Assembly: GCF_000003815.2 (NCBI RefSeq)
Contig: NC_049981.1
Location: 5,892,949 to 5,956,948, forward strand
Direction: 5' to 3'
Source: Branchiostoma floridae
Taxonomy: Eukaryota; Chordata; Leptocardii; Amphioxiformes; Branchiostomatidae
DNA length: 64,000 nt
Shown: piece after piece, positions 4,701 through 61,717 of the stretch
Layout of the letters: each line of letters opens with the position of its first letter
Numbering within the stretch: the first letter of the stretch is position 1
The notes under the pieces: generated by a model
Told to the model about the DNA's origin: nothing
The model's database searches: none
Seen by the model: the letters and a program-made list of their open reading frames with translations, nothing else
Translations under genes and position numbers: made by a program

Positions 4701-4991
4701 TTTTGTATGAAAAACGGTAACCTGCATTGACAACCTGGGAATGTAATTTTCTTGTCGAGGCGGAATCTTTATGTTAAGGGACAGGAACAATGACGCTATG
4801 CCATTGTGCAAGATAGTGCACACGTATTTCCACACGTATATACAGCTGTAAATGAGTACCTAGCTTTGGGTAGGGACGTTCTCTCGCATTGGACGTAGAG
4901 CTTGAGGTCTCGTAATGGATGGAAGCCGCAACGCAAGATTAAACCCTGCTGTCTTGTCTGCTTGTCTTCAATGCTTCTGTCTCTTTTCTAT

Positions 4992-8904: not shown

Positions 8905-9097
8905 GGTAGAACAGATGTCGCAAACTGCAAAAAAATGTGTACATTCAGCCAAAAAAATATATGACCTTTCCTCTTGCAATCTAATCTAAGTAATGAACCC
9001 ATCAAGTAAGTTTCATGTTGTGACGAATGTTTGTGTTGCATAGACCAAAATAGCAGTGAACAGTACAAGCTACAAATATCCTATCATACATTAGTTC

Positions 9098-10804: not shown

Positions 10805-10910
10805 ATGTCGGCTGTGAAGACGAGTCTTCTCGTCTGGATTACAGTTTGGTGTCTTGTGAGCTGCGTTTACGGTCGACACGAACCACATTCGGGATTCAGA
10901 TTATCTGGTG
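10805..10910 (+). CDS. Exon 1: start codon and signal peptide
   Basis: ATG at 10805 begins [18 protein letters not shown], a textbook signal peptide with likely cleavage after VYG (residue 23). The exon ends at GTG|GTAAGT in phase 1, matching exon 2. Intron 1 (10911-13679, 2.8 kb) holds a MITE, microsatellites and an interspersed repeat. Confidence 0.8.
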
Positions 10911-13900
10911 GTAAGTGGAAAGTTCTTTTTGCTTGTAAAAATTGCACGGGAAACGTGTTTATTACTTGCTTTCTGGTCGCATATTGTACATGTCGTGGCA
11001 TGTAGGGCAACAAGCTTTCCTAGGCTGTTATCTTTAATCGGACATATTTTATATGTAAAAAGGATCCCTCAAGGAATTATGAATTTCTATCATAAAGGGA
11101 CCCATTCCCCTTGCAATGGACAATCATTGACAAATCATACTTGGTAATCGACGAAATACGGGCTCATAAAAGTCTCATAGAATTACAGATAACTTCAGAA
11201 ATAGCCAAGATATTTGACAGCCGCGATAAATTCCGCTGGTCGGAATTTTTTTTTTTTTAAATTAGACTTTTGGACACTCGAGATAGTATGCTGCTGTGTG
11301 GGGTGAGTTCTTATGACCTGGAATGCTCACGGGTGAGATTATGACACCCTGAACTTGCCTATTTGTACGTTATGGCCAATGCAGATTTCTATTGGTGTTC
11401 ACTGCTCTCCAACAGGCCTTCTTACGGGGTACGGGGATCGTAGAATTCTGAAACAAAACAAAAAAATTGGCCAGAGGAGTACTAGTCGGTCCACGCTTAG
11501 GACATATTATCCCTACGGGTTTCGCGGCCGGTAGCAACTCCTCTGTTAGCAAAACTCCCCTGGCAAATTATGTTTCCTATAATAGCTACTGTTGTCAGTC
11601 TGGAAAAGACTATATTTTACGTGTGTTGTGGTGGGTAGTTGCTTTGATCACAAAGCCAAGATGTAAATGCAGAAACTTTCGCGGTGGTTTAATGTTCGCG
11701 GTTTTTGCGGTGGCTGCTTCATCGCGAATTTAAAAATACCTATAAAGGTCTGCAGTGCATAGTGCTAACGCAAACTTAAAACCAGAGAGAAAAGTCCCTT
11801 TTCACGGTTCCGCGAAATTAAATCCCCGCGAACTTAAATGCATTTACAGTATTCTGACTCCCGCGCGGTGCTCTGATGTTAGGGTTTCAAACACTAAGCC
11901 CAAAAAAATCACCGGGTGTTACCATATTGGCATTGGCTGGCACAGGATATATGCTAGTGTGAGAGACATGTATTACGTGGGTGGAGCTCTATTTAGCGTC
12001 CTAATTATCTTTAAAATGTATAATAATTCGCGCTGGTAGAATGTTGGGTGACCTTTAAGAAGTTACAATCTTTATAATCTGTTGTATATACAAAACACAG
12101 GTCATAATATCAGGTTACCTAAACTATATACACAAAATCTCTCAAGCACAACATGTATGAATGAACAAGTTTTAGCAAGACTAAATCACAACATATAATA
12201 ATAAAAGAAAAATGCTGTTGCTTATGGAAACAGTTACAATCAAGAATTTGTAATAACATGCCATGGAATTGATCATGGAATTTTTCGTATGTAGAAGTTA
12301 CAGTTTACTTTATTCACATATACCTAATGTTGCAAGATGTTGTTATCTGTCTATCTATTTATCTATCAATCAATCAATTTATCTATATCTATCTATATAT
12401 CTATGTAATTCTCTCCAGCTCTGTGTGTGTGTGATTGCGTGGTGAGAGAGAGAGAGAATTACACCTATTTTAAACATAAAGACGACGACATATTGTTTTT
12501 CTTTGCCTTATGACACCAACACAACGAGTGCAACACCTGCTCAAAGCTCATAAGATACCGTTGCAAGGCAACACATAAACAACGGATGGCCTCAATACAC
12601 CGGAACAAAGAACGTTGACGAAAATTTACATACCATGTCATTTTAATGGGATTAATTACACTGCATAATTACGGTGGGCCGAGCCGACGCCTCGGGACAT
12701 ACATAAACGTGTCGGCGAGGTGAATCAAAAGCTAATACAATTATGAATTTCAGACATATAAAAAAAAAAAAATTAAACATACAGTTCTGTCATCAAAGTG
12801 GAATATGGCTCAGTCCCAACAAGTATGTAAGAGACAACTTTTGCAAATTCATTCCCGAGGGCTAGTTGCAAGTGGAAAAAAAAAGATGGTAAACGCCATA
12901 GTTACCGACTCATCTAACGCTGACTCTAGAATATAAATACTTTAATCTTTATCCCTGATGAATAGACAAAAGTTGTGCCAATCGGCCTCAGACTTATGGT
13001 AAGTCGTAGGGCGCTGCCTGTATTGTACTATCGACTAGTACTAGTGGATATCAACTCTCTATGGCCATAGACATAGACGTCTAGCTCCTGGGAGACTATT
13101 CAGCCTATTTTACCACATTTTCATTATTTGAAACGTCAAATCAAAAGACTAGAAAAATCTCATATCCATGCAGTAAATATAAAACACGGTATATGTATAC
13201 GTGTTTCGTACCACCCGGTGTACCTTTGAAATCACAGGTAGGATCCCCTGAAGGCAGATGGGTGACCTTATTATTAATTACCCCCGGGAGCGTTTGGGGT
13301 TCGAGCGATGTGGAATACACCGTGATGTATTTTTTCATACACACCCGAGAAAACAAAGTTTGATGCAAAATGCGGCAGAAGTTGAGAAATTGAATGTCAT
13401 GGAACGAAAAATTTGCAACAACAGCAATTGCAACGACACACTAGCTTTTAATTTATTATACCTTATACAAATGCGTGGGGAGTTCGCTTTTTGGTAATAT
13501 GTAGCATCTACTCATAGGTTTTGAAGGATGCAGCAGTGAATGCTTTACGAGTTTTTTTTTTTTTTTTTTTTTTACATTTTCCTAACAAGAGAGTAGTTAG
13601 TAATAGAAAGAGGGGCCGGTGATAGGTAGTCATGAATACCATAAATGAAACGATAACGGCAAAACCTTTTTTTTTTCAGAATGTGACTCGGTAACCTACG
13701 AGCTATGCCAAGAAGTGCTGTCCAACGGCACGGATATGTGGGGCATGCTGGATAACTTCAGTAATGACACGACTGATGGGAACCAGACCTTTGAAGACAT
13801 GATGGGAGTAATAGAAAGGTGAGAAGATTTCGCTCACAATTGAAAAAAAGCCTCAGACATGTCCTGCAGTTATATAATAAAACACTAGAGTGCGCTCCAA

Positions 13901-16606
13901 TACGCTTTTATAAGGAACAAATTTCCAATCCGTTTTGGCACATGGTCTTGTAGATACTTGACGTCAAAATAGGAATTGGTCAAAATTAGTCAATACCGTC
14001 CCTCGCCAGTCTTGCATTTTGCCTTTTGTCTATCAAGGCCACATAGATGACCTTTATAGATTATTGTAGACATAATATGGTTCGTTCGTTATTATTCTTT
14101 GTTTTGTTTTGTTGATAAAATGCGCTTATTTTGCCACCCTTCCCCTCATTCTTAGAATACATTACTCCACATTTTCTTAATTGTTGTCATCTAGCAAATT
14201 ATTCAAGTATCTTGTTAACCACCTCTATCTAAGCGGTTGCCATGACAACGTGTCCCTCATCATTTGTGCCGCCTGCCTGGACCGCCCGCCCTGCCAGAGC
14301 CTCTGTGATGACGTCATGGCCCAGTGTGACGACATCCTAGAGATATTTAACATCACCAGAGAGTGCGATACTCTACCTGATGAGTTCGAATTCATCGGCG
14401 GCTGCATCTCACGTATGTTACTCGTATGCTCAATCGTTGTTACTTTGCATTAAATGTACATATATTTGCTTGTTTGTATTTAAAAGCATATGACCTGAAT
14501 GGCCTTATAGCAATATAGTGTCAAGCACGCAAGGTGGCGCTCTTAGGTGGCAGCCGCGGTTGTTGCACCCCAAAACAGTCCCTTTCGTACCATTAACTGC
14601 ACCGATGTCCGGGAAAAGTGCAATATATGTGTTACTATAAGTGATCCAATTATCTGTGGATAGTTTAAGACAACTATCTAAGGTAGAGAGGAGAACCGTA
14701 AGAGTAAACGTGGCTGTTACCGAGACTGGCTGCAGTGTGTAGACCAATACGAACAATGGCGTCGTCAAGTTTCCGTCGGTATTCTGTGGATTGCATCCGG
14801 AATCTGAGTCGCGTGGTCCCCAGGATTGATCCGCTGAAATCTTGTATACGCCTTAGCGAAATCTTCAAGAGAAGCAGACCAAGGGGGACAAAAGATGGGG
14901 AACACATTTTACGTAAGATTTCCAAAGTCTTGCGCCATCGTCCCTCCCCATGCCAACAGTCGGATACAAGTACTTCCTTTATATGCAAATCACGCGCCAT
15001 CGCTACCTGTCCAGCGTCAAAACAATTAGACACGACGATCCATCATTGGCTGCGGTAAGTGACGATAACCGTACTAATCCATTCCCTATGCCAAAAATCA
15101 TGTTGACCAATCTAATGTCTCTAGTAAACGACTTATTAGATGAATTTCAGGCTGTCTTGTTGAGCAACAACATAGACATTGTGGTTGTATCCGAGTCGTG
15201 GTTTACCCTTTCCGCGCCCGACCAACTTCAGTCCATCGACGGCTACGCCACCTACTCGACCCTTCGGCACAAAAATATTGTGGCGTCACCCTCAAAAGCG
15301 TACACTGGACCCTCGGAATCTTTGATTAGATATGCCATTTTACCTAGCTTTGCCTGCAAGCAAAAATTGCACCTCAAAATGTACGAAATAGTGATTCAGA
15401 GAGTAAACACTTTCTGTCGAGTGTTGCCAGCCTTCCAGAATTTAGCGTAAACCGTTGCCAAACGTTCTCAATTTAGCGTAAAACTTTGCCGACCTTCGTA
15501 AATTTGACACAAAGCGTTGTGACCGTCCCGAATTTAGGGCATAGCGTTGTCAGGACCCCCCATGCAGACCCTCCTCTAAGTGTCGCACCACTCGTCGTGT
15601 AGCACTCTACTTCTAGGACATCATTCCCTCTAGCACCATCCCTGAAGTCACAGTCTCACACAATCTCGAATGTTTGTGGGTCAAAGTACGTCCATATCGC
15701 CTACCACGCCACATCTCAGCCATCGCCCTACGCTGCATCCTCCGCAGTCTCCGCATGGAGAAGACCTTGTCGAGCACCTCATCGCAACCTCGGACTATCT
15801 ACGCACAACGCATCCGAATATTGGCCTGGTGTTCCTCGGCGATGTTAACAATTTAAACATCCGAGACATTTCGTGTATTTTGAAACAAACCTTGTCATAA
15901 ACCTTGTTATGGCTGATACAAGACGGAGGTTGCCCAGGCCTTTTCCCGGGTGATTTGTGGTGAATGGCCTACTCCAGACGAAAAGGTTTGAACGATTGCA
16001 CGCCGAGGCATGCCCTTACTCTTTGTCGAAGTGTATAGTGGGGTCTTTAACATGCGGTAGGTGTTGTTGCCCTAAAATATAGAACACAAAACCTCCTTTT
16101 AACGCCGTATCCGAGGAACGTTCCTGGCAGAAGTTAGCAGGTACTCATTTCTCCTGAGTGAAGTAATAAAAGTCGTGTGGAGTGCCTCTCCCATGGTTAG
16201 AATATCGATAATCGAAACCTGGAACTTTCGGGCCTGAGCCAACCTTTTACTTCTTACGGTATGTACGCTCAGGAAAACAAACATCTCTAAAATTCTGATA
16301 CCTTCCCTTAAAGGTGGAGTGTGTCCAGAAGGAGAGGTAGAGTGCTGGAGCCCTTTGTGGAACGGGACGGAGGTGCAGTGTGTGAACGCCAGCCTAGCAT
16401 GTGATGGAGACTGGGACTGTCCTTTCGGTGAAGACGAGGATCATTGTGGTAACCTTTCCTTTATTATGTTTCTAAAGGGAAAATACTACAGTCATTAGCA
16501 TGAAAAGTCCGTCACTTCTGTTGGAGATAGGTCAGATAGGTTAAAGAAACGGAGATTGATTAGGTCAATCAATCTATTTCACTACCCCTTATTTGTCTGC
16601 ACATGT

Positions 16607-16639
<33 letters not shown>

Positions 16640-52600: not shown

Positions 52601-55600
52601 AGTGGATATACACTGGCTCAGGACCTACAGACTTGTACAGGTAAAACAATTGTTATTTATTCAGCAACGGTGTAAAAATTTGAAATGTAACAGAAGTGCG
52701 TGACTCCACTAGTGGATACACACTAGCTCGGGACCTACAGAGTTGTGCAAGTAAAGCACTTGTTGGTTATTCTGAAACGGTGTAACAATTCTAAATCTTA
52801 AACTGCATCAGTAGTTACACACTTTCTAAGGACCTACAGACTTGTGCAGGTAAAACAGGTTTCAATTATTCTGCAACAATGTAACAATTGGAAATGTAAC
52901 AAAAGTGTAAAGGTAAAACAGGTTACAGAGATAGCTTCAGTCATAGTTGTTTATCATTGTTTGTAATTCTAATTACTATGTTGAAATTTGCTGTAAAACT
53001 TTATTTTACATCCTAGAAAAATAAATTGAATGTGAGGTAACATTTAATGTCGTATTTTTCCAGATATTGACGAGTGTGCTGCCAATATGAACAACTCGTG
53101 TGACCCCGTGAACGGAGCATGTACCAACACCCCCGGCAGTTACAACTGTTCCTGTCAGGCTGGTTATCAACTGGAGAGCAATGGTGGTACTTTGTGTGAA
53201 GGTACGTTCCACGAACAAACAAGTGTTATTACAGAAACCCTGCCACATCTTTTTCGTACATTTATAACATTACTGAAAACTTCGGTAGTTTCCTGTGTTG
53301 TTTACTCAGAATATTTTAGAACGCCTTAGCAATTACTTGTTATGTCTATTCCGAACAATAAGAAGTATTCTTTGTTCTGTAAATCGTACATGCTTTATTT
53401 CATTTCCCTGACAAAAACAGCGGATGCTGTCTGAATTTTATTTGATAAACAGTGTAGACAGTAGAGAGATTGATTCAACTTCTTTTACGTTTTATGAATG
53501 TATATTTATATAGAACGCTGATGCGAAAGAAGAAAAGGTAGTGAAGTTTTATGTTTTATCTGTCACATTACCAAATGCTGCTGGATACTTTGATTATTCT
53601 TGAACAACTAGTAAAAATGATTGTATTGGGGTTTTAAACATCCTTGTTGTTACGCGAACATAACGGAACGTCATGTATGTGCTTTGTCTGTAGATATTGA
53701 TGAATGCAGCACTTCTAATGGAGGATGTGGACAGGTGTGCGAGAATAGCCCCGGGACTTTCTCCTGCGCCTGTCACCATGGTTACACACTGGGGGCTGAC
53801 GGGAAGGCATGTAATGGTACGTGATGACAAAAAGGAACATTTGCATTTCAATTGTTCTCGCAACATGACGCTAGTTCCGTAATAGAATTTCAAGAGCTGC
53901 ATGTAGGGGTCTTTCCCGGACTAAGTTGTTAAAAACCTACAGTTGTCGCATGTATATAGGCACGCCTGGAGCAATTGCTGTCATAGTTAGATCACTAGAA
54001 GTAGCACCGAATATAGCAGTTGCTCCAGACGCTTGCATATTACGCCAAGTGTAACCCCCTCAAGTCAGCTCCTGGCTTCGAAGACAATAACAATAACTAT
54101 TTACCTTAGAGGACATAGTTTAACAATTAATCCCCTCTCTGTTTCTGGATCTGATCAGATATTGACGAGTGTGCGCTGAACACGGACGGTTGTGAGCACC
54201 TCTGTACCAACACCAACGGTTCGTTCGTCTGCTCCTGTCCGGAGGGACTTAAACTGGACAACACTGGTACCAACTGTGTCGGTAAGTGTAGAAATAATTT
54301 ACACGCAAACAAAATACTGCACTAAAGTTGGCGTTTTTCACTTATTTGTTTTGTACAAAATACATTAGCGTGAACATCGCATGCTAGTTAACGTACGGTA
54401 TGTCCGCGGGGGAAACAAAACTTTAATGTAATCAATTTATTGGATATTTGACAACATCGGTAGAGCAACTAAGAAAAGCATTACGGGAAGAAAAAAAGTA
54501 TTACTTTTGAATGGCGTAAGTGCTGAGTGTTAAGCCTTATTAAGCCTAGAAACCTGAAGGCTTGGGTCAAATCCTGTCAAGCTACGCAGCTTGTGCTTTT
54601 GGGAAGGGTACTTTACACGACTTTCTTCACTCCATCCAGGTGTAAAAAAGGGTAGCTGACTTTAGTTTTAAAGGTAAAAGGTGGTTGGAGGAGAAAGATG
54701 CACACTGTACTATCGTATGTCCTTGACACATGTAGTGGCTAACATCCAACTGCCCTACGGTCAGAAGAAGGCAATGAAAGCTACTTCTTACCTCTTTGAA
54801 AGGAAGAAACAATGGGACAAAGCAAACCATGACATTTCCATTTTCTCTTTCGTAGCCGCTGATGCTTGCTTGATCACCACCTGTTTTCCTGACGGTATCG
54901 CCACCTGTGCCGTCATTTCCGGTACAGAGACTTGCATGTGCACCACCGGATATGAACTGGACAGCAATGCTACAACCTGCCAAGGTAAAGATCTTGAAAC
55001 ATGTTTGCACATGGTTTGCACATGGTTTTAGCTTCATCATTAGCAATACACCTCCGATTGATACTTCAGAACTGTTGCTATGGTGCAAATAGAGTATCGT
55101 GTAAGCAAAACAAAACAAAAACAAACAATAGTGAAAAGGCTCTCGTTACCGAACCGCAGGATGTTTGAACCTATACCCAGATTAAAGTCTTATAAATAGC
55201 CTTAAAAGGGGCGAGTTGGGCTCCGCTTTCAAATACCGTGTCCTAGAGACATCGGATAACAAACCACTGCCACTACGGCCTTAAAGGTCACATAACTGCA
55301 TTTACCTTTAGATTTTGCGCTTTAGTAACTACAGCCATTGTTCATGGACATTTATGTGTCCTCGAACGTGTAAAGTTTACACTAATTTAGCAACATGAAG
55401 TCATAAAGTGTTCGTCTTTTATTTTACCCAGGACCTATTTTATAATAAGTATACATAACACAATCTATGCAATTATCAAATCATATAACGTTACATTTAG
55501 TACGTTCTTGAAACTTCTACAACGTTGCTTGGTGTATGGGATGTAAATAGAACACTAAGGTTCGATATGCTGACGTTCTAGCTGTGTTCTTTTCAGATAT

Positions 55601-58600
55601 TAACGAGTGCAACACAGTGTGTAACGGCACGAACATCGCCTGCACCAACACGGAGGGATCCCACACGTGCGGCTGTGTGGCAGGGTTCTATTTGGAGACA
55701 GCAGGGGATGGGGCTGTCAGCTGTGTTGGTGAGTACTAGTAACATTTGCACCAAAGCTTTCAACCAAGGATTGATGTGTTAAAATAGTCGTTCTTTTTTC
55801 TGTTACTGAGTTGGATTCGTCGCCGTCACGTACAGTATGTGCATTCTCACTAGATAGCTTCAAACAAAATGTGCAATGTACAAAGGTTAGGTGTGACAAG
55901 TCGTTCAGTGTAATATAGCAAAATATTGCCACGTTACGTGCCTGCGAAGCTGGTGTGTTTAGCCGAAGGGTGGATATAACAGCTATAGAGATACAGATAC
56001 AAATAAAGATATGACATTTTCAGCGGCGGTGCATGAATAATAGAGGATCTTGTAGTTCTTCGGTTGAATATCTATCAGTTACCATGCTTTGGTGTAGTGA
56101 AAGCTTTACGTTTATACTCGACTCATGATAAGATGAGCAGCTTCTTAGTTATTGCCACTGTAAAGCATACCGTTATAGTTTGTGTATTAAAGAAGATTGG
56201 CTTCTTTTTCTTCCAGCCACAAAGTCGTTTTCTGGTTCGATCAGGATCACCAGTAGAACCTACACGGCCGATCTCGCTGACACGACGTCTTCGGCCTTCA
56301 AAACTCTTGCTGCTTCTGTCAAAACCACGGTAAGCTATCTAATGAATATTCTAAATTTGTTAACATGTTACTTAATAGGGAAATGTGACGTGGACTGGCA
56401 AAAAATAGCGTTAGATGGCACCCAATCAAACCTTTGTGAACCTAGCAACTCATCAGTATACGAATGAATTAAGAAACCACCATTAGATATAATATATTAA
56501 ACTTTTATTATATAATCATGATAGGTTTCAGCATAAAGAGTCTCCGGAAATGTAAACAAATTGACTCAAATATTACCCCTTATCTGCCAATTTCCTTCCA
56601 GTTAAAAATTTGGCACTCTTCATAACACGTCTGACGAATTTATGTTTGGAGGCTTATAACTATGGCACCTACAGGCTTAAATTGAAAGGAATGTTTTTTT
56701 TTTTTTTTCACACACGTGGGATAAGAGAATAATTTGAAGTTCCAGTTCACTATGTTGAATGTTTCTTCTATTTTCAACCCAAAGCTGGACGACTTGTACA
56801 CATCCAAACTCGGAGACGCTTTTAAGGGAACGGAGATCACCGGGTTTAGTAACGGCAGCATCGTTACCGACTACAACGTCAACCTGGCGCCCAGCAGTAA
56901 CGAGACGGCGGGCAGTCTGTCAACTGCGCTGTCTGAGGCCGTCCAAGACTCTGGCGGCGGCTCGTTCTCGTTCGACCCTACCAGCATCAGTGTCACTGGT
57001 GGGTTCTTGTAACACTTGTACAACATTTTCTATGCTAGCAGCATCTTTGAGCAACTAGAACTAACCTCTTGCCTGTATACAAGACATGAACCCTCATGTG
57101 TTTTAGCTATCTTTTAGCTGCTGAGACTGCCAAGCTAGAATGAACCATTTCGTTCCAAACTAGTGGAACAACTACCACGAAGAAAGTCACTTGTAAGTGT
57201 ACGCATACTTGTACATCTGCACCAATGTGATCTTTGTATCTGTATACACATATGATTGTTCTTTTCTTACGGCGTAGATGAGTGCACCAGTGCAGTGCAA
57301 GCAGCTGCAATATGTTGATTAAATGACTGTATATTTGATACCTGTGCGTACATGTCTGTCTTTGATACCCGTGTGTAGATATGTGTCTTTACTCTGCGTA
57401 AATGTGTGTCTTTAATACCTGTGCTAACAATAGTGATTTTTTTCACCCCGCAGATGTGGATGAGTGCGCCACTGCAGGTGCGAACAACTGCCACATGCAG
57501 GCCACCTGCGCCAACACGGAGGGGTCCTATACCTGCACCTGTCTCACCGGCTACACAGACAGCTCACCTGCCGGTACCAAGTCTGGTTCCGTGTGCGAAG
57601 GTGGGTAAAACCGATTTAAAAAATCTATAGACCAGCGAATGCAAAAATCGAATAAATCAGTATGTCAATCAATCAGTTGATTTTTATTAGTAAATCAATC
57701 AATGATTTCATTTATAGATATAAATGAATAAACAATAGATAAATAAATCAGCATATCAATCAATAGTTTAGTAAGTAGACTTATCAATAGATATAGCAAT
57801 AGATCCAGTGACATCAATAAATCAACAGACTGGAATAGATCGAAGACAAAGTGCCAGAAAATGGAATTGACTATTCAACAGTTTAAGCAGGTTTTTGAAG
57901 CCGTGTCGTCCTACTATTTTATGCCGTTGCCACATTATTTTCACATTTATCTGACGTCAAATGATAACCGACCTCACCCCACCCCCCCTCCTTACAGCTG
58001 TCAGGCCGCTGTCTCCGGACGGAAACATAGGCGTAGCCATCGGCCTGGGAGTGACGTGTGGCATTCTGGGTATCATCATCATCGCGGCAGTACTGTGGTA
58101 CTTCATATCGTACAAAACGAAAAGGGTAAGGTTAAATTCAAACTTTTAAGGCATATACGAGCAGTTATCTCAATTTAAGATTTTATGTCCACCAACTTTT
58201 TTGACTTAAAACTCATCATGAATGAATGCATGAGCAGTTATCTTAATTTAGGATTTTATGTCCACCAACTTTCTTGACGTAAAACTCATCATGAATGAAT
58301 GCATGATTTAGTCCGACTACAAATTAAAATGGCGAGTATTTTTTCGAACACGAAAACAAATGTAGCCTCCGTTGCAGTCTTCGAACGGGGCTTTTTATGT
58401 TATAGGGGGGCAAGGTTCTCTTGTGCCGTTAAAGGGAGTTTGTCGAAGAAGGGAGTTTGATATGGAAGGGCGCTTGCCGTGAAAGCGAGCTTCGCCCCGA
58501 AACGGCAAACTCCCTTTCCTCCCTTCCTAGGCAAACTCAATTTCCAGGCACAAGAAAACCTAGCCAATGTTGAAAATCACGAACCAACGCCCCCACCCCC

Positions 58601-58872
58601 TAAAATAAAAACCAGCCCCGTTCAAAGACTTCAACGTAGGCTGAAACAAATGAATGCTGAATTAATGATCATTAATCTCAACCTTGGGAGATGGTCACTT
58701 CATAAACTGGTTTGGTATGTAGTTTTCTATCTAAAACAAGTTATGTATAAAACTCGAAGTATTGCCCCCCTGAGGAAAAAACTGAAATTAGAACCGAGCT
58801 TTCAATTTGATTAACTAAATATTGTTCTTTTTCTTTCATTCGCAGGGATCTGCAAAAATTAATCCGGAGTAA
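10805..58872 (+). CDS. Giant mosaic type I membrane protein (FZ/LDLa/TY/EGF/NIDO/AMOP/vWD/SEA), 59 exons
   Basis: I chained 59 exons by GT-AG sites with matching phase at every junction. The total is 8,862 nt including the stop, about 2,953 residues. Residue map: signal peptide 1-23; FZ1 36-154; LDLa1-4 155-338; mucin stalk 339-460; LDLa5 to 506; LDLa6-11 507-786; thyroglobulin-1 787-858; FZ2 859-970; LDLa12 971-1020; linker to 1049; FZ3 1050-1169; EGF1-6 1170-1438; NIDO 1439-1666; AMOP 1667-1850; vWD and following segment 1851-2149; Ig/cadherin-like 2150-2238; EGF7-18 2239-2744; SEA 2745-2853; EGF19 2854-2902; TM 2903-2945. Most modules are flanked by phase-1 introns, as expected for shuffled domains. 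The first half resembles the corin ectodomain and the second half MUC4/Mesh, but I know no protein with the whole order. A split into two adjacent genes is possible; nothing in the phases suggests it. Confidence 0.8.
11660..11851. mobile_element. MITE with TACTGTAAATGCA-type ends, copy 1
   Basis: The right end read on the minus strand is TACTGTAAATGCATTTAAG followed by TTCGCGGGGATTTAA. The left end is GATGTAAATGCAGAAAC followed by TTTCGCGGTGGTTTAA. A second copy of the same length class lies at 46910-47095. The element is non-coding and rich in CGCGAA/TTCGCG. Confidence 0.65.
12344..12460. repeat. TATC, TG and GA microsatellites
   Basis: An imperfect (TATC)n and (AATC)n tract at about 12344-12412 is followed by short GT and GA runs at 12421-12456. 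Low-complexity intronic DNA; the short frame across it is not a gene. Confidence 0.8.
13300..13440. repeat. Interspersed repeat shared with 24580-24720
   Basis: GGAATACACCGTG(A/T)TGTATTTT, GAGAAAAC, GCAGAAGTTGA and TTGCAACA occur in the same order at 24580-24720. The copies are diverged, with no visible coding capacity. Class unknown. Confidence 0.6.
13680..14412 (+). CDS. Exons 2-3: frizzled cysteine-rich domain 1
   Basis: Exons 13680-13818 and 14195-14412, joined in phase 2. Residues 36-154 begin [10 protein letters not shown] and continue to the signature [20 protein letters not shown], the conserved C-x(2)-PC-x(2)-LC core of frizzled CRDs, followed by two more cysteines (RECD, GGC). Frizzled CRDs bind Wnt lipids in receptors and act as protein-binding modules in corin and collagen XVIII. 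Several Asn-x-Thr/Ser sites (NGT, NFSND, NQT, NVS, NIT) predict N-glycosylation. The internal intron position is shared with FZ2, supporting duplication within the gene. Confidence 0.83.
14735..15900 (+). mobile_element. Degenerate LINE (CR1/L2-like) endonuclease fragment
   Basis: Inside intron 3, same strand as the gene. A frame near 15105-15265 reads [19 protein letters not shown], then [12 protein letters not shown] and IDGYATYS, the start of an apurinic-type LINE endonuclease. A later frame (about 15735-15880) reads [15 protein letters not shown] and [12 protein letters not shown], the GDxN motif of the same domain. Intervening sequence is frame-broken and no reverse transcriptase is visible, so this is a dead 5' fragment. 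Confidence 0.7.
16314..17029 (+). CDS. Exons 4-5: LDL-receptor class A repeats 1-2
   Basis: Exons 16314-16448 and 16868-17029, both phase 1-1. Repeat 1 ends [16 protein letters not shown]; repeat 2 ends [16 protein letters not shown]. Each has six cysteines and the acidic CDGxxDC-x(3)-EDE calcium-binding pattern. Both have a longer loop than usual between cysteines 2 and 3, with glycosylation sites (NGT, NSS). LDLa modules bind basic protein ligands in LDL-receptor relatives and space the ectodomain in corin. Confidence 0.85.
16603..16674. repeat. (CA)n microsatellite
   Basis: An interrupted CA dinucleotide run with occasional ACAAAC/AGAAAC units, in intron 4. Confidence 0.95.
17092..17190 (-). 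repeat. Penelope-like repeat fragment
   Basis: On the minus strand it reads GCTGAAGAAGAC..., then CACTCGAAACGTCCCGAAGT. CTGAAGA followed by a CACTC-bounded hairpin and GAAAC recalls the repeated ends of Penelope-like elements. A shorter relative (CACTCGAAGCGTCC) lies at 44395-44440. Confidence 0.4.
17275..18219. mobile_element. piggyBac-type MITE family 1 (TTAA-flanked)
   Basis: Flanked by TTAA on both sides (17271-17274, 18220-18223). The ends are inverted repeats CCCTATTCAGACCGGG / CCCGGTCTGAATAGGG, followed by a G/C run and TTTTGAGGCC on both arms. A TTAA duplication with CCC-start ends is the hallmark of piggyBac elements. There is no transposase in 945 bp. It lies in intron 5. Confidence 0.8.
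18500..19064 (+). CDS. Exons 6-7: LDLa repeats 3-4
   Basis: Exons 18500-18631 and 18942-19064. Each exon is one module: [17 protein letters not shown]...[16 protein letters not shown] and [17 protein letters not shown]...[16 protein letters not shown]. An N-glycosylation sequon immediately precedes cysteine 3 (NVSC, NSTC), a pattern kept through repeat 8. Confidence 0.85.
19461..19964 (+). CDS. Exon 8: mucin-like Ser/Thr/Pro stalk plus LDLa repeat 5
   Basis: One 504-nt exon. The first two thirds encode ten tandem 7-residue units (consensus TPEQTSA) followed by three 10-residue proline-rich units around PSGQPP. This should be a densely O-glycosylated, extended stalk. The last part is an LDLa module ([17 protein letters not shown]...[16 protein letters not shown]). 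Fusion of stalk and module in one exon suggests the repeat expanded within an existing LDLa exon. Confidence 0.85.
19538..19747 (+). repeat. Coding 21-bp minisatellite, ten units
   Basis: Exactly ten 21-bp units (210 bp) around ACTCCGGAACAAACGTCTGCT, in frame. Units 4-6 (19601-19663) and 7-9 (19664-19726) form a 63-bp higher-order pair with four differences, so the most recent growth was by a three-unit block. Confidence 0.9.
20469..21727 (+). CDS. Exons 9-11: LDLa repeats 6-8
   Basis: Exons 20469-20594, 21071-21196 and 21596-21727. They are near-copies of each other: (R/D)RC-x(3)-EIAC(R/W)DW-x(3)-N(L/M)TC followed by LACDGNWDC. The high similarity, with identical 126-nt length for the first two, marks recent tandem exon duplication. 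The donor of exon 11 is ambiguous: GTAAGA at 21728 is the better match, while GTGGTA at 21725 also keeps the frame. Confidence 0.84.
20665..20948. mobile_element. Inverted-repeat element in intron 9
   Basis: The left arm CATCATACGCAGGGACATCC pairs with the right arm, which on the minus strand reads TAGTACGCAGGGACATACAA. The arms are about 30 bp and the element about 285 bp; non-coding. Confidence 0.5.
21281..21487. mobile_element. Inverted-repeat element in intron 10
   Basis: The left arm AGGTCCCATTTCGAAACGGG pairs with the right arm near 21455-21487 (minus-strand GGGTCCCAATTCCAAACGCG). Element about 207 bp. The AAATGTGAC/CATTTC ends resemble copies near 30345 and 36907-37078. Confidence 0.5.
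22058..23030. mobile_element. piggyBac-type MITE family 2, copy A
   Basis: TTAA on each side (22054-22057, 23031-23034); terminal inverted repeats CCCTCAAACCACCGTA. Subterminal palindromes GGGGTCAAAACTGACCCC or GGGGTCAGTTTTGACCCC occur four times. The centre carries sequence related to family 1 (AGACCGGG, GCCACCAAACTTGGTAA, TGGCAACG). A copy in the opposite orientation is at 38763-39726. Confidence 0.8.
23253..23951 (+). CDS. Exons 12-13: LDLa repeats 9-10
   Basis: Exons 23253-23417 and 23787-23951, both exactly 165 nt, so a tandem exon pair. They begin GCE(D/V)WEFRCGRNM-like and end [16 protein letters not shown] / [16 protein letters not shown]. The loop before cysteine 3 is longer (about 20 residues, with Ser/Arg/Asn) than in repeats 3-8. 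An alternative acceptor for exon 12 at 23244 also keeps the frame. Confidence 0.83.
24280..24440 (+). repeat. SINE tail fragment
   Basis: Shares GAGCCTC...GGCT.ATCTGTGTA and TTGCCACTAAGA.CCG, in the same order, with the tRNA-headed copy at 29459-29650. Confidence 0.45.
24465..24550 (+). repeat. Solo terminal repeat related to the MULE at 4992-6786
   Basis: CTACCAGACTCC, CTGGAAAAA and ATGGAACAAATAGAGG occur in the same order and spacing as in the MULE arm, but diverged. The other end is not seen nearby. The repeat shared with 13300-13440 follows it at 24580-24720. Confidence 0.55.
24771..25971. mobile_element. GC-rich DNA transposon with GCTCTCACGGCG subterminal repeats
   Basis: The ends are inverted repeats CCCCATTCCACTTGACGGCG (left) and the complement of CCCCATTCCACTGGGACGGC (right), each followed by CGGCGCTCTCACGGCGATGG and CAAATTTG. 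The right arm has about ten degenerate direct copies of GCTCTCACGGCG. Such clustered repeats are typical transposase-binding arrays. The core is AT-rich and lacks a transposase. Its interior TCAACGAATTTCATAGATAAAG recurs at 23483 and 10090. Confidence 0.65.
26039..26705 (+). CDS. Exons 14-15: LDLa repeat 11 and thyroglobulin type-1 domain
   Basis: Exon 14 (26039-26164) is an LDLa module ending [16 protein letters not shown]. Exon 15 (26490-26705, 72 residues) is a thyroglobulin type-1 domain: C-L-R near the start, then [16 protein letters not shown] and the diagnostic [15 protein letters not shown], ending NCS. These domains occur in nidogen, testican and saxiphilin, often as cysteine-protease inhibitors. 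The exon 15 donor (GTTTGT) is weak but is the only one keeping phase 1 before a stop-bearing extension. Confidence 0.85.
27235..28656 (+). CDS. Exons 16-17: frizzled cysteine-rich domain 2
   Basis: Exons 27235-27433 and 28520-28656, joined in phase 2. Residues 859-970 begin [20 protein letters not shown], then [19 protein letters not shown], then [19 protein letters not shown] and a final C. This is the most canonical CRD of the three (ten cysteines; the YxxTxFPN motif present). Confidence 0.9.
27540..27841. mobile_element. MITE with GGTCACAC...AAGTCCGT ends, copy 1
   Basis: The left arm GGCGGGGTCACACATGCGTG then TATATTCAAGTCCGT pairs with the right arm (minus strand GGTGGGGTCACACCTGCGTA then TATATTTAAGTCCGT). 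About 300 bp. The same family is at 40980-41137. A weak tRNA-like segment (GTAGTCAAGTGGTTAGC) lies just before it at 27476-27540. Confidence 0.65.
28735..28865. repeat. Purine-rich GGGA/GAAGGA tract
   Basis: About 130 bases of almost pure A/G on the plus strand in intron 17, after the exon 17 donor. Low complexity. Confidence 0.75.
29251..30165 (+). CDS. Exons 18-19: LDLa repeat 12 and acidic linker
   Basis: Exon 18 (29251-29400) is an LDLa module, [15 protein letters not shown]...[16 protein letters not shown]. Exon 19 (30079-30165) encodes a 29-residue acidic linker ([20 protein letters not shown]) with two cysteines and no domain I recognise. It joins LDLa12 to FZ3; its phase-1 flanks make it skippable without a frameshift. 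Confidence 0.8.
29459..29650 (+). repeat. tRNA-derived SINE
   Basis: An A-box-like TGGCGCAACGG near 29468 and a B-box-like GAGTTCGATACTC near 29513 are spaced as in a tRNA, followed by a non-tRNA body. The acceptor stem does not close, so this is a polymerase III-derived SINE rather than a functional tRNA gene. Confidence 0.6.
30388..30638 (+). repeat. Two decayed copies of the FZ3 acceptor and exon start
   Basis: Just upstream of exon 20, the unit (CT-rich tract, CTGCAG, then the first coding bases) occurs three times: CTCTGCAGGTTATAAGCCAA at 30433-, CCTGCAGCATCTCAGCCCAT at 30550-, and the real exon CCTGCAGGTTGCCAGCCCAT at 30632-. Translated in the exon phase they read [18 protein letters not shown] and CQPITLPLC. 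Spacing is about 80-115 bp. Confidence 0.75.
30639..32557 (+). CDS. Exons 20-22: frizzled cysteine-rich domain 3
   Basis: Exons 30639-30780, 31110-31215 and 32446-32557 (phases 1-2, 2-0, 0-1). Residues 1050-1169 read [57 protein letters not shown] and a final CITP. Unlike FZ1 and FZ2 it is split by two introns, so it either gained one or was acquired separately. The second intron contains the palindromic element at 31248-32300. Confidence 0.88.
31248..32300. mobile_element. Long inverted-repeat element, nested fold-back
   Basis: A near-perfect inverted repeat of about 180 bp: 31248-31437 (starting ATACCCGCCTCACATTAGGC) against 32083-32259. Outside the right arm, 32262-32300 is the reverse complement of 32045-32082 (TCTGCGATCTCGGAGATCTC...), giving a second, nested inversion. 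CCCGCCTCACATTA also recurs at 31441. It lies in the FZ3 intron 21; matching short frames in the two arms merely mirror the repeat. Confidence 0.8.
32893..37395 (+). CDS. Exons 23-28: EGF-like repeats 1-6
   Basis: Exons 32893-33036, 34787-34912, 35395-35520, 36017-36151, 36574-36705 and 37252-37395, each phase 1-1 and one module. Five are calcium-binding type (D(V/I)DEC or INEC starts; EGF4 is not). EGF1 and EGF6 are close relatives: both 144 nt, [14 protein letters not shown], ending GTGFPGEC. The EGF4 donor is a non-ideal GTCAGT; the EGF6 donor is GTTTGT. Calcium-binding EGF arrays form stiff rods. Confidence 0.86.
33154..34192. mobile_element. piggyBac-type MITE family 3
   Basis: TTAA flanks (33150-33153, 34193-34196); ends CCCTCATCCGACCGT and its complement. 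Subterminal palindromes GGGGTCATTTTTGACCCC and variants sit at both ends, as in family 2. The 100-N gap falls inside, so its true length is unknown. Confidence 0.78.
33803..33902. other. Assembly gap (100 N)
   Basis: Exactly 100 N, probably a placeholder of unknown true size, within the intronic MITE. It does not touch an exon. Confidence 1.
34340..34770. repeat. Penelope-like repeats with hammerhead-like core, three copies
   Basis: Copy A on the minus strand (34341-34400), copies B (34505-34570) and C (34665-34735) on the plus strand. The shared order is CCTGAAGAAGGTGACAGACG, GTCACC, (G)AAACGTTGGTGAG, AATAAAGCAA.GGTTGTG. CTGAAGA fits the hammerhead CUGANGA core, GGTGAC-AGAC-GGTCACC is a perfect stem II, and copy C keeps GAAAC; A and B have lost the first G. 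Confidence 0.5.
36907..37078. mobile_element. Small MITE in intron 27
   Basis: CCTCACATTTCCAAACCGG on the left pairs with the right end, which on the minus strand reads CCTCGTCACATTTCCGAACC. A lone right end of the same kind (CTCGGTTTGGAAATGTGACG) is at 30344-30366. Confidence 0.5.
37840..41354 (+). CDS. Exons 29-32: NIDO domain
   Basis: Exons 37840-37979, 38556-38729, 40155-40328 and 41158-41354, joined in phase 0. The start [12 protein letters not shown] and later [18 protein letters not shown]..., [21 protein letters not shown] and [15 protein letters not shown] match nidogen-type NIDO domains, seen in nidogen, MUC4, SUSD2, Mesh and alpha-tectorin. About 228 residues including the boundary. 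It opens the MUC4-like block. Intron 30 carries a piggyBac-type MITE. Confidence 0.87.
38763..39726. mobile_element. piggyBac-type MITE family 2, copy B (inverted)
   Basis: TTAA flanks (38759-38762, 39727-39730); ends CCCTCAAACCACCGTA and complement. It aligns over its whole length with the reverse complement of 22058-23030, including the GGGGTCAAAACTGACCCC palindromes and the family 1-like centre. Confidence 0.82.
40390..40680 (-). repeat. tRNA-derived SINE, minus strand
   Basis: On the minus strand, a tRNA-like head (AGAGTGTTTGCCTTGCAGTC, then TCAGTTTGAGCCC as B-box-like) is followed by a body with CCCCTACTGTAGTGATTGCA and TGTGTGGCCAGGGATAC. Intronic, no coding capacity. Confidence 0.5.
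40980..41137. mobile_element. MITE with AAGTCCGTATGAG ends, copy 2
   Basis: Left CACATTCAAGTCCGTATGAG pairs with the right arm (minus strand GCGTATATATTCTAGTCCGT). A shorter relative of 27540-27841, ending only 20 bases before the NIDO exon 32. Confidence 0.6.
41925..42060 (+). repeat. TATAGCCGGTATAACC interspersed repeat, copy 1
   Basis: Reads CTGTATCTATATAGCCGGTA then ACCGCCTTTCGGCGTAACAC. Copies are at 42315-42500 (plus) and 55925-56015 (minus). Two copies bracket exon 33 of the AMOP domain. Class unknown. Confidence 0.6.
42103..44142 (+). CDS. Exons 33-36: AMOP domain
   Basis: Exons 42103-42274, 42825-42978, 43331-43419 and 44007-44142 (phases 2-0, 0-1, 1-0, 0-1). Diagnostic pieces in order: [42 protein letters not shown] and [14 protein letters not shown]...FDKRP. 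AMOP (adhesion-associated domain in MUC4 and other proteins) always follows NIDO in MUC4, SUSD2 and Mesh, as here. The role is structural or adhesive; no enzyme activity is known. Confidence 0.87.
42315..42500 (+). repeat. TATAGCCGGTA interspersed repeat, copy 2
   Basis: CTGTATCTGTATAGCCGGTA, then ACACACCGACTTTACAG; same order as at 41925. It lies immediately downstream of exon 33. Confidence 0.55.
43735..43975. repeat. Diverged interspersed repeat (three intronic copies)
   Basis: GAAGTCGACGGA, GTTTGAAATTGC, GCAGTTTGAAATCAC and GTTACCCAGCG occur in order. Similar strings follow the same order at 45935-46110 and 48290-48425. The copies are strongly diverged; class unknown. Confidence 0.45.
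44466..44530. repeat. (GAT)n microsatellite
   Basis: About 65 bases of GAT/AAT triplets in intron 36. A histidine-rich frame on the minus strand is only this repeat. Confidence 0.9.
44753..47352 (+). CDS. Exons 37-40: von Willebrand factor D-type domain
   Basis: Exons 44753-44933, 45467-45627, 46240-46494 and 47174-47352. The start [20 protein letters not shown] is the classic vWD opening with the GDPH motif; [20 protein letters not shown] is the classic C-terminal core. As in MUC4 it is nearly free of cysteines, unlike gel-forming mucins. In MUC4 the GDPH Asp-Pro bond is cleaved autocatalytically; the same site here could split the protein into two associated subunits (inference). Exon 40 continues into a MUC4-like segment. 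Confidence 0.86.
45331..45372 (+). repeat. Decayed copy of the start of vWD exon 38
   Basis: AGTGGCATTGCTGTCCACTA then GGACAGCACAA in intron 37 matches the exon 38 start AGTGGCATTGCTGTCCAGCA then GGGCAGCGCAA at 45465, about 135 bases upstream of it. The copy stops soon after and has no usable frame extension. Confidence 0.7.
46690..46890 (-). repeat. tRNA-derived SINE, minus strand
   Basis: The minus strand shows a tRNA-like head ending CTCGAGTTCGATACTCG (B-box-like), then a body with ACTTCACCTATGTGTAAAAG. The same body recurs at 54590-54690 on the plus strand. Confidence 0.55.
46910..47095. mobile_element. MITE with TACTGTAAATG ends, copy 2
   Basis: Left TACTGTAAATGAAGAAATG then TTCGTGGTGATTTAA; right end on the minus strand TACTGCAAATATATCTAAT then TTCGCGGGGATTTAA. 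Homologous along its length to 11660-11851. It ends about 80 bases before exon 40. Confidence 0.65.
47957..49246 (+). CDS. Exons 41-43: post-vWD segment and Ig/cadherin-like domain
   Basis: Exons 47957-48077, 48482-48635 and 49134-49246. Exon 41 reads [20 protein letters not shown] followed by an alanine run ([11 protein letters not shown]); this cysteine pair and D-x-A-x-TGN pattern follow vWD in MUC4. Exons 42-43 start [20 protein letters not shown] and end [17 protein letters not shown], an all-beta repeat resembling cadherin-like or Ig-like segments of MUC4 and Mesh. Five or more N-glycosylation sites. Confidence 0.78.
49262..49350. repeat. (GTTT)n/(GGTT)n microsatellite
   Basis: GTTTGTTT grading into GGTTGGTTGATT repeats directly after the exon 43 donor. 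Imperfect. Confidence 0.85.
49802..50614 (+). CDS. Exons 44-45: EGF-like repeats 7-9
   Basis: Exon 44 (49802-49939) encodes an EGF module ([13 protein letters not shown]...[12 protein letters not shown]). Exon 45 (50369-50614, 246 nt) encodes two modules in one exon, the second starting [17 protein letters not shown]. All other EGF modules in this gene have one exon each, so an intron was lost here or the two modules were never split. The introns around it carry (GAAT)n repeats (50015-50090) and a transposon end (50150-50290). Confidence 0.85.
50150..50290. mobile_element. Solo end of the CCTAGTGG/GCGCTCTC transposon family
   Basis: GTGACTGAGAAGACAACAAA, GGTCGCAGAGAGAGCG and GATCGCCGTCCTAGTGGAAA then GGGGGTAT at the outer end. 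It matches 9340-9490 and the termini of 24771-25971. Confidence 0.6.
50645..50905 (+). repeat. Two decayed copies of the second half of exon 45
   Basis: 50648-50765 repeats the EGF9 part of exon 45 (AACGAGACTGATGTCCATCT...CAGAACATGTGTTG, then GTAGGTTTAT like the exon donor). The copy still reads [20 protein letters not shown], but lacks the first part of the module and a proper acceptor. 50795-50905 is a third, more eroded copy (ACTACAGCTGTGACTG, CAACAGAACATGT). Period about 140 bp. Confidence 0.85.
51078..55728 (+). CDS. Exons 46-54: EGF-like repeats 10-18
   Basis: Exons 51078-51200, 51567-51689, 52033-52155, 52521-52640, 53064-53201, 53694-53816, 54159-54281, 54856-54984 and 55597-55728, all phase 1-1, one module each. 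Most begin D(V/I)DEC or DINEC and carry the Asn/Asp and aromatic positions of calcium-binding EGFs ([16 protein letters not shown]); modules 13 (AAQSCSND) and 17 (ADACLITT) lack the calcium-binding start. Five are exactly 123 nt, pointing to recent tandem duplication. The run forms a long rod between the vWD region and SEA. Confidence 0.87.
52681..52936 (+). repeat. Three decayed copies of the 3' half of exon 49 plus its donor
   Basis: After exon 49 (52521-52640) the intron repeats its end three times: 52681-52792 (GTAACAGAAGTGCGTGACTC, GGACCTACAGAGTTGTGCAA), 52793-52889 (GGACCTACAGACTTGTGCAG, GTAAAACAGG) and 52890-52936 (partial). Each includes exon-end sequence, the donor and the first ~45 intron bases, so the duplicated unit crosses the splice site. 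Period about 100-112 bp. Confidence 0.85.
54500..54690 (+). repeat. SINE body fragment
   Basis: GGGAAGGGTACTTTACACGA, CTTCACTCCATCCAGGTGTA and GGTAGCTGACTTTAG match the order of the SINE body at 46690-46890. The tRNA head is eroded. Confidence 0.45.
55925..56015 (-). repeat. TATAGCCGGTATAACC-family repeat, copy 3
   Basis: On the minus strand: GTATCTGTATCTCTATAGC, then CACCCTTCGGCTAAACACAC and CAGCTTCGCAGGCA. Matches the copies at 41925 and 42315. Confidence 0.55.
56217..56998 (+). CDS. Exons 55-56: SEA domain
   Basis: Exons 56217-56329 and 56785-56998, joined in phase 0. Begins [20 protein letters not shown] and contains [20 protein letters not shown], the hallmark of SEA domains. In membrane mucins SEA folds and self-cleaves at Gly-Ser in GSVVV; here the site reads GSIVT, so the Gly-Ser is kept but the last position differs. 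SEA-EGF-TM order matches MUC17/MUC12-type mucins. Confidence 0.83.
57270..57310 (+). repeat. Decayed copy of the EGF 19 exon start
   Basis: GTAGATGAGTGCACCAGTGC then AGTGCAAGC at 57276 resembles the exon 57 start GTGGATGAGTGCGCCACTGC then AGGTGCGAAC at 57456, about 180 bases upstream of it. It soon reaches stop codons. Confidence 0.6.
57454..57600 (+). CDS. Exon 57: EGF-like repeat 19
   Basis: Calcium-binding EGF ([19 protein letters not shown]...[10 protein letters not shown]), 49 residues, between SEA and the membrane. Phase 1-1. It is followed by a long (AATC)/(ATAAAT)-rich stretch at 57625-57840. Confidence 0.87.
57998..58872 (+). CDS. Exons 58-59: transmembrane helix, short tail and stop
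   Basis: Exon 58 (57998-58125) encodes a membrane helix ([20 protein letters not shown], then LWYFI) followed by the basic stop-transfer SYKTKR. Exon 59 (58846-58872) adds GSAKINPE and TAA. The cytoplasmic tail is about 13 residues with no tyrosine signalling motif beyond one juxtamembrane Tyr, so signalling would need a partner. Confidence 0.83.
58159..58306 (+). repeat. Two-copy 73-bp tandem repeat
   Basis: GAGCAGTTATCT(C/T)AATTTA, ATTTTATGTCCACCAACTTT and AAAACTCATCATGAATGAAT occur twice in a row (from 58159 and 58232), nearly identical, in the last intron. Confidence 0.8.
58405..58562. mobile_element. Inverted-repeat element in the last intron
   Basis: GGCAAGGTTCTCTTGTGCC and AAAGGGAGTTTG on the left pair with CAAACTCCCTTT and GGCACAAGAAAACCTAGCC on the right. 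About 155 bp, hairpin-forming. Confidence 0.5.
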
Positions 58873-60640: not shown

Positions 60641-61717
60641 TCAGCAATTATCTTCGATAGCGTCAGCGTTTCTGATCATTATAACCTTGTAGAGAAGACT
60701 GCAGGAGATAATGATCATCACAGTAATGCAGCTTATAGTCAATGTCATTGCAGTGATGAAAAGCAGTTCCAAAGAATCGGTGAGAGAAGATATGACGATT
60801 GTTTTAGGAGAGGAAGGGGCAGTGTTGGTCATTGCTATGTTTCCGATGAATTTCTTGTTGTAATTCGCACCGTAGACGTCAGTGCCAAGCCGAAAACTGT
60901 CCGGGAAGTCATCATCTTTTGTGGCGTTTGTAGTAACCGTTATAGCTGTAGTCTTCTTTCTGTTGCTCGGTCCAAAACCTGACATACCCTGTTGGAGAGA
61001 GATCGGGCCAATCTTTGACTGAGTTGCAGAGCGACTGCCTTGCTTCTTACAGCCCGATATCTCATGGGACACGTCTGACAGTAGACGCCCTTCTAGTCGT
61101 CTGGGAGTCTCGCATTTGAGATATTCTTTAACATGGTGTTCCGTAAGAAAGCAGGCTGCACAGGACGAGCAACAAGTCTTCTCTTCCTCCTCACATGACT
61201 CTAGGCAAGCCAGTTTAGCAATCAGCCAGGCCATGTTGCATCCACAGTTGTAGGGATTGTGGTTAATATTCGCGTTGGTCACCTGTGGCCATCCAAACTC
61301 GTAAGGAGAAACCGACACGAGTTCGTTATAAGAAAAGTCCACGTACGTTAGCTTTGGAAGATGGGTGATGACAGTATCTAACTTCAGTTGTGGGAGTCTG
61401 TTGTTACCCAACAGAAGGTATTTTAAAGATGGCAACACGCGTAGTGCTGGTCAGGACATGTGTTCTATGGCGTTATAGCTGAGGTCTAGGGTGGACAGCA
61501 GCGACAATGCCGGGATGTACGTAACATTTCTGATGTTGTTAAAACTGACCTCGAGTCGCTCTGCGTTTAGAGGGATGTCCACGGGAATTGTCTCAAACTT
61601 GAGGTGGTTACAAAACACGAACTTCAGGTAGGCCAATCTCGAAACTATACATTCTGGCGTAAGACTAGAACATACAGCCCAAAGGACAAAAGTCAGGATC
61701 AAGCTTTGATATTTCAT
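60641..61717 (-). pseudogene. LRR type I membrane protein gene interrupted by one in-frame TGA
   Basis: One continuous minus-strand frame from ATG 61717 (signal MKYQSLILTFVLWAVCSS) to TGA 60641, broken only by TGA at 61453-61451 (codon 89). Before it: LRRNT and LRRs (LSTLDLSYNAIEHMS). After it, still in frame: PALRVLPSLKYLLLGNNRLP, further LRRs, LRRCT (CGCNMAWLIAKLACL), a membrane helix (LLFITAMTLTISCITVMIII) and a tail of about 10 residues. Paralogues have Trp at the stop position (IEWLELR, VSWISLR), so TGG to TGA is the simplest change. Everything else is intact, so this may be a young null allele or a sequencing error. The tail lacks the NxxY motifs of the other LRR genes. Confidence 0.75.

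Follow-up and report, generated by a model that had tools for sequence, protein, structure and literature searches.

Does a single amphioxus gene carry Frizzled (FZ) and LDLa domains in front of a MUC4-like membrane stem, or have two neighboring genes been read as one? The window analyzed here is a stretch of 64,000 nucleotides of the Branchiostoma floridae genome (G000:C3:5892949-5956948), and own-genome searches covered 513 Mb in 431 contigs. A first-pass annotation had described the locus as corin-like plus MUC4-like. Our answer, which we hold to be very likely, is one gene with one architecture, in which an FZ/LDLa/thyroglobulin-1 front sits on a MUC4-like stem.

Gene model and domain content

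A self-trained exon-chain gene-finder recovered a phase-consistent model of 59 exons on the + strand (10805 to 58872; 2,969 aa), in line with the 59 phase-compatible exons first proposed. The model protein has 240 cysteines and 55 N-glycosylation sequons, and 32 of the 59 exons are symmetric 1-1 exons. The gene-finder was constrained to start near 10805 and to end before 59000, so both ends of the model are taken from the annotation rather than discovered; an unconstrained run added noise exons outside 10805 to 58872. The best exon chain in 10791 to 59000 (60 exons, free start) scored 1323 bits, compared to 141 bits on the reverse strand and 8.3 to 18.9 bits in 10 of 10 dinucleotide shuffles. 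Training of the codon table on this very gene biases the comparison between strands and, to a lesser degree, the comparison with shuffles. Exon 41158-41496, 68 codons of which are matched in paralog P2 (see below), is probably too long in the model, which also misses the second exon of the Ig/cadherin-like stretch (ending at 49246) and a duplicated EGF at ~50639 to 50765. The EGF exon there is tandemly duplicated (151 bases, 50499 to 50814), and a good acceptor is absent from the second copy. Scanning the window for Rfam families (at gathering scores) and for tRNAs returned no match.

Domains were called with Pfam tables on four pieces covering the whole model, at E up to 0.1 (Table 1). The predicted front runs FZ1, LDLa 1-4, a short Thr/Ser/Pro stretch, LDLa 5-11, thyroglobulin-1, FZ2, LDLa12, and FZ3; the predicted stem continues with EGF1-6, NIDO, a putative AMOP, VWD, C8-3, an Ig-like stretch, ~12 EGF, SEA, EGF, and the transmembrane (TM) helix. 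This agrees with the domain order of the first-pass annotation. Its three frizzled CRDs are each found by Pfam Fz and have 10 cysteines apiece by our count, and its thyroglobulin-1, SEA, and single TM helix are all present. The regular expression for the LDLa core, CDGxxDCxxxxDExxC, gives the 12 LDLa claimed, while Pfam gives 11 stretches (10 in one piece and 1 in another). Pfam finds EGF_CA, and by our count eighteen exons bear EGF domains and hold ~19 EGF, compared with the nineteen reported. A mucin stalk had also been named; a Thr/Ser/Pro stretch does exist (71 of its residues are T, S, or P), but at 126 aa it is thin for a mucin.

Table 1. Features of the gene, all on the + strand of the window
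Feature	Coordinates	Strand	Evidence
Exon 1, signal peptide	10805..10910	+	Hydrophobic N-terminus; phase-1 donor 5.6 bits
FZ1, two exons	13680..14412	+	Pfam Fz E 2e-8
LDLa 1-4, four exons	16314..19064	+	Gene model, Pfam, core motif
126-aa Thr/Ser/Pro repeat stretch, then LDLa 5	19461..19964	+	Gene model, composition
LDLa 6-11, six exons	20469..26164	+	Gene model, Pfam, core motif
Thyroglobulin type-1	26490..26705	+	Pfam E 7e-18; present in paralog P4 too
FZ2, two exons	27235..28656	+	Pfam E 2e-17; P2 identity 65% and 96%
LDLa 12	29251..29400	+	Core motif; P2 identity 80%
FZ3, three exons	30639..32557	+	Pfam E 1e-21; P2 identity 79-96%
EGF1, last exon left of assembly gap	32893..33036	+	Pfam; P2 identity 87%
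TTAA-flanked terminal-inverted-repeat element, 1,039 bases, holds 100-N gap	33154..34192	+	Repeat comparison
EGF2-6, five exons	34787..37395	+	Gene model, Pfam; P2 identity 76-89%
NIDO, four exons, end of last uncertain	37840..41496	+	Pfam PF06119 E 3e-20; P2 identity 78-91%
Divergent AMOP (putative), four exons	42103..44142	+	Own-genome AMOP profile
VWD, three exons; GDPH motif 44764-44775	44753..46494	+	Pfam PF00094 E 2e-16
C8-3_MUC4, two exons	47174..48077	+	Pfam PF23263 E 6e-7; P2 identity 95-98%
Ig/cadherin-like stretch before EGFs, named by eye	48482..49246	+	P2 identity 92% for 48482-48635
EGF7-18 array, eleven exons	49776..55728	+	Gene model, Pfam; P2 identity 71-100%
SEA, two exons; GSIV motif 56854-56865	56217..56998	+	Pfam E 3e-16; motif identical in P2
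EGF19	57454..57600	+	Gene model, Pfam; P2 identity 92%
Transmembrane helix exon	57998..58125	+	Read by eye; P2 identity 48%, hydrophobic helix kept
Putative terminal exon, 8 aa + stop	58846..58872	+	Gene-finder model only

A PDB search with FZ2-LDLa12-FZ3 placed the best stretch in FZ3 for all 43 matches, which were to Frizzled, SFRP3, and sizzled CRDs. The closest were the Frizzled-10 and -6 CRDs (E 2e-15 and 2e-14 with this query), so lipid binding may be possible. For the stem, 17 PDB matches were obtained, most of them to VWD chains (IgGFc-binding protein, mucins, von Willebrand factor); one of the 17 is a chance flagellar protein. The match to C8-3_MUC4 (PF23263) scored 29.0 bits against a cut-off of 25. 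SEA domains are known for a G-S self-cleavage motif, and GSIV is identical in the window and P2. The GDPH motif of the VWD, identical in the window, P2, and P4, is described in PMC5354666 as the site at which the vWD domain of MUC4 is putatively cleaved.

The segment between NIDO and VWD is a candidate divergent AMOP, an identity that is not proven. Pfam AMOP had no match in the window, in P2, or in the corresponding P4 exon, and genome-wide it matched seven exons, none of them in the window. A profile built from four of the five AMOP loci of this genome (L010 left out) gave 15.7 bits on the window segment, compared to 9.7 bits for the best of 500 shuffles, and only 4.7 bits on the whole model protein. 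With hhalign, the window/P2 pair aligned to nearly the full AMOP domain (score of 31.4, probability 68%; best of 60 column shuffles, 20.8). From the NIDO-AMOP-vWD series first reported, NIDO and VWD are borne out by Pfam; AMOP, missed by Pfam, is supported as a divergent candidate by the profile and the hhalign comparison.

Continuity across the assembly gap

One 100-N run (33803 to 33902), absent from the earlier annotation, interrupts the window in the EGF1-EGF2 intron. It lies inside a repeat element that begins TTAA-CCCTCATCCGACCGT and finishes with its exact inverse plus TTAA; such TTAA ends are typical of piggyBac-like elements. Two relatives occur in other introns (22058 to 23030 and 38763 to 39726), bringing the TTAA-flanked inverted-repeat elements in introns of this gene to three, each ~1 kb. 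The two relatives are 89% identical to each other over their full length and ~70 to 72% identical to ~215 to 220 bases at either end of the gap element. A second inverted-repeat element lies to the right of the gap element (34310 to 34744; arms of 69 nt, 90% complementary).

Since repeats are where assemblies break and false joins arise, the window alone could not settle the link from FZ/LDLa to NIDO. Two neighboring genes, or a scaffold joined wrongly across the gap, would make the combination an artificial chimera of an FZ/LDLa part and a MUC4-like part, a reading that we consider very improbable. In addition to the gap and its repeat, a start-like reading directly before EGF2 at 34744 is in its favor. 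Against it, two observations inside the window already favor the link: FZ3 and EGF1 lie only 335 gap-free bases apart, left of the gap, and EGF1 is most similar to EGF6, beyond the gap, with the top score of 171 EGF exon pairs (69% of 143 bases).

Scoring a two-gene split at 57 of the 58 introns, with the extra start and stop cost-free, bears on both sides. Among the best 30 splits, the score rose at introns 43 (+24.6), 45 (+11.6), 13 (+5.9), 5 (+4.5), and 18 (+4.1). Exons missed by the model lie in introns 43 and 45, and P2 bridges both of these as well as intron 18; the slightly higher scores at introns 5 and 13, which lie in the region outside P2 coverage, speak for two genes. Splits at introns 22 and 23, in contrast, lowered the score by 5.3 and 2.6, which speaks against them.

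The strongest evidence came from the paralogs. Twenty genome stretches were compared exon by exon with the window, and two loci were then extended; exons shorter than 12 aa (33 and 59) were left out of the queries, and 41770-41792 was too short to query. Paralog P2 (C3:1995437-2027243, - strand) is located 3.9 Mb from the window on the same contig. Of the 42 exons queried between exons 16 and 58, 41 were matched there in order, the exception being exon 19 (30079 to 30165). Its order is FZ2, LDLa12, FZ3, EGF1-6, NIDO, AMOP (putative, as in the window), VWD, C8-3, Ig-like, EGF array, SEA, EGF19, and TM, and the five loci used contain no N. The P2 intron between EGF1 and EGF2 is 998 bases long, free of N, and bounded by AG/GT splice ends, and it has no match above 24 bases to the corresponding window intron. 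Because P2 is collinear across the gapped junction without any N, FZ2 to TM is one gene, and the claim of a single gene is strongly supported over this range. P2 also illustrates how a paralog from the same genome can resolve an assembly gap located exactly where two parts meet.

Comparison of the window with P2 also reveals purifying selection from FZ2 to EGF19, with a Ka/Ks of 0.119 (41 aligned rows; 1,946 codons), a total that includes one off-target 23-codon row (LDLa9) and excludes the TM exon, which fell below the 60% identity cut. By block, Ka/Ks ranged from 0.05 (VWD-C8) to 0.18 (AMOP), with single exons up to 0.33; Ks was saturated (nan) in rows LDLa9, EGF1, and AMOP4. Together, this ratio and the collinearity of P2 show that the exon series is protein coding and that the fusion was inherited, not made by the assembly.

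For exons 1 to 15, the sequence read at P2 contained no one-to-one match, and other FZ and LDLa exons lie upstream of its FZ2. Thyroglobulin-1 had no match at P2 within 1991001 to 2040000 and 2060001 to 2080000 (2040001 to 2060000 lay outside the search). The part from the signal peptide to thyroglobulin-1 therefore rests on the gap-free sequence of the window and on P4. P2 further differs in the third Frizzled domain: intron 31216-32445, between the second and third FZ3 exons of the window, is absent there (one fused exon). This intron, which holds an element with perfect inverted arms of 175 bases (31264 to 31438 and 32083 to 32257), appears from the comparison to be a case of gain or loss.

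A third family locus, P4, is found on another contig (C4:10.18-10.24 Mb, - strand). Profiles derived from the window detected 20 FZ first halves, 23 second halves, and 7 LDLa, and the order is FZ/LDLa, thyroglobulin-1 (Pfam 2.5e-18), NIDO, putative AMOP, VWD with GDPH, C8-3, and EGF. P4 is thus like the window gene in all of these domains and their order but differs in having ~20 FZ and in lacking EGF1-6 between FZ and NIDO. Its thyroglobulin-1 is separated from its NIDO by a 100-N gap, so P4 alone proves less than P2.

Across the genome, the Frizzled-domain search gave at least 145 listed matches (150 of 230 candidates scored), many in tandem clusters. NIDO matches numbered at least 55, a lower bound considering that the NIDO of the window, split over exons, is itself missing from them. 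Compared by eye with the 145 listed FZ matches, NIDO lay within ~50 kb of FZ at C4:10.187M (two matches), C3:2.015M, and, weakly, C2:17.541M; the last is 29 kb from a single FZ match at 17.511M, on opposite strands. Tandem FZ arrays extend over C4:10.190-10.231M (L016-L020) and C3:2.024-2.070M (L028-L031), with 23 and 22 matches, ~20 FZ each. Contig C290 has nine FZ matches spaced roughly as in the C4 stretch, of which they may be a second copy.

Relation to known proteins

In corin, FZ and LDLa modules alternate in a type II membrane layout. The label corin-like holds for the pairing of FZ with LDLa modules but not beyond it: trypsin-like protease and SRCR domains were absent from the Pfam tables of the whole model (E up to 0.1), and the window protein has an N-terminal signal peptide, a C-terminal TM, three FZ, and a MUC4-like stem. 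Mesh and SUSD2 have the order NIDO-AMOP-VWD, which the window protein shares if its putative AMOP is one. It differs from both in lacking a sushi domain (same Pfam tables and threshold) and in its added FZ, LDLa, SEA, and EGF arrays.

The label MUC4-like is better founded, as NIDO, VWD with GDPH, C8-3_MUC4, EGF, and TM are all present, and these, along with the putative divergent AMOP, are common to MUC4 and to cnidarian mucin4-like proteins. According to PMC9080433, the cnidarian proteins carry SEA and diverse N-terminal domains (CUB, ZP, FN3) together with NIDO-AMOP-VWD, whereas MUC4 as described there is without SEA; SEA and added N-terminal domains are features that the window protein shares with the cnidarian proteins. 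Since they already combine SEA with NIDO-AMOP-VWD, the stem is of an already known kind. In the window protein, an FZ/LDLa/thyroglobulin-1 front replaces CUB/ZP/FN3 or the giant PTS region, PTS is limited to 126 aa, and 18 to 19 EGF accompany the SEA. This combination is consistent with the hypothesis, mentioned in PMC9080433, that ancestral MUC4 had a SEA domain.

The earlier statement that no described protein has all of these domains was not contradicted by full-text searches of the open literature, in which an FZ/LDLa/thyroglobulin-1 front on such a stem was not found; sequence databases may well hold such proteins. NIDO, AMOP, VWD, and frizzled are all mentioned in PMC7853314, where a table has Frizzled-domain proteins and mucin as separate entries. 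Overall, the comparisons argue for a real family of MUC4-like membrane proteins with a variable FZ/LDLa front, not for corin. With its conserved stem and changing front, such a family would clearly exemplify how symmetric 1-1 exons allow exon shuffling.

Possible functions and neighboring loci

As a whole, the locus is reasonably well explained by a type I MUC4-like membrane glycoprotein from one gene, acting by the mechanism outlined here. The mechanism itself, an apical, self-cleaving barrier or capture system, is more tentative. Calcium-loaded LDLa and cbEGF arrays would form a long rod on the apical epithelial surface. The chain might cut itself at GDPH and in SEA and hold together until shear or protease load shed the front. 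The FZ/LDLa front would serve as a binding face for lipid-bearing ligands, lipoproteins, or microbes and would be the part that varies among family members. The junction, cilia, and lipid/Wnt-presentation roles suggested in the first-pass annotation are conjectural.

It is possible, although rather unlikely, that front and stem of this same gene are used apart through alternative promoters or splicing, for example, with the FZ/LDLa part secreted and a short form kept in the membrane. The symmetric 1-1 exons would permit in-frame skipping of many domains. A signal-peptide scan for additional starts, at a threshold of 1.8 in place of 2.4 (which missed exon 1), passed 58 hydrophobic ATG readings on the + strand and 31 on the - strand, too many to mean much and useless as a test. 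The difference in front between paralogs with a constant stem fits a change at the gene level equally well.

Amplified and varied FZ/LDLa fronts might instead, carried by a conserved mucin stem, act as arrays for pattern binding and so form a defense or recognition surface, which we regard as unlikely. Three loci have FZ beside a NIDO stem, with 3 to ~20 FZ if the arrays share transcripts, and the high identity of EGF7-18 between the window and P2 accompanies front exons that are unmatched one to one. However, Ka/Ks is 0.11 in FZ2-LDLa12-FZ3, with no sign of diversifying selection there. An endocytic lipoprotein-type receptor is quite improbable: the twelve LDLa with acidic core, EGF repeats, and TM helix would suit one, but the Pfam tables (E up to 0.1) contained no YWTD beta-propeller for the whole model, and the putative tail after the helix exon is only 8 aa long.

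Returning to the capture mechanism, FZ domains have been described chiefly as modules that bind Wnt or lipids, in receptors and in a few proteases and collagens. A MUC4-type stem that bears them, possibly as long arrays, would tie mucosal surface proteins to the capture of lipid ligands. A bolder version, which we consider speculative and unlikely as it stands, is an undescribed membrane mucin-like family in which a conserved, self-cleaving NIDO-AMOP-VWD-SEA stem would carry a freely varying 3 to ~20 FZ with LDLa, a sheddable sponge that would take up either lipid-modified ligands such as Wnts and lipoproteins or the lipids of microbes. If true, high-capacity FZ arrays released by shedding would buffer a morphogen or microbe in the glycocalyx.

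Tandem intronless LRR-type genes on the - strand flank the mucin-like gene (1 to 489, 3375 to 4859, 7366 to 8985, and 60641 to 61744). In the two complete copies, 3375-4859 and 7366-8985, Pfam finds LRR_8, and a signal peptide, a TM segment, and PIxNxAY-like motifs in the tail can be read by eye. An in-frame stop (61451 to 61453) interrupts the copy at 60641-61744, and LRR_8 is below the cut-off in 60641 to 61450. Another LDLa-rich locus starts at the right edge of the window (63759 to 63998, - strand) and continues in L034 and L035, where the next 20 kb contain 14 LDLa matches (E 1e-8 to 2e-2).
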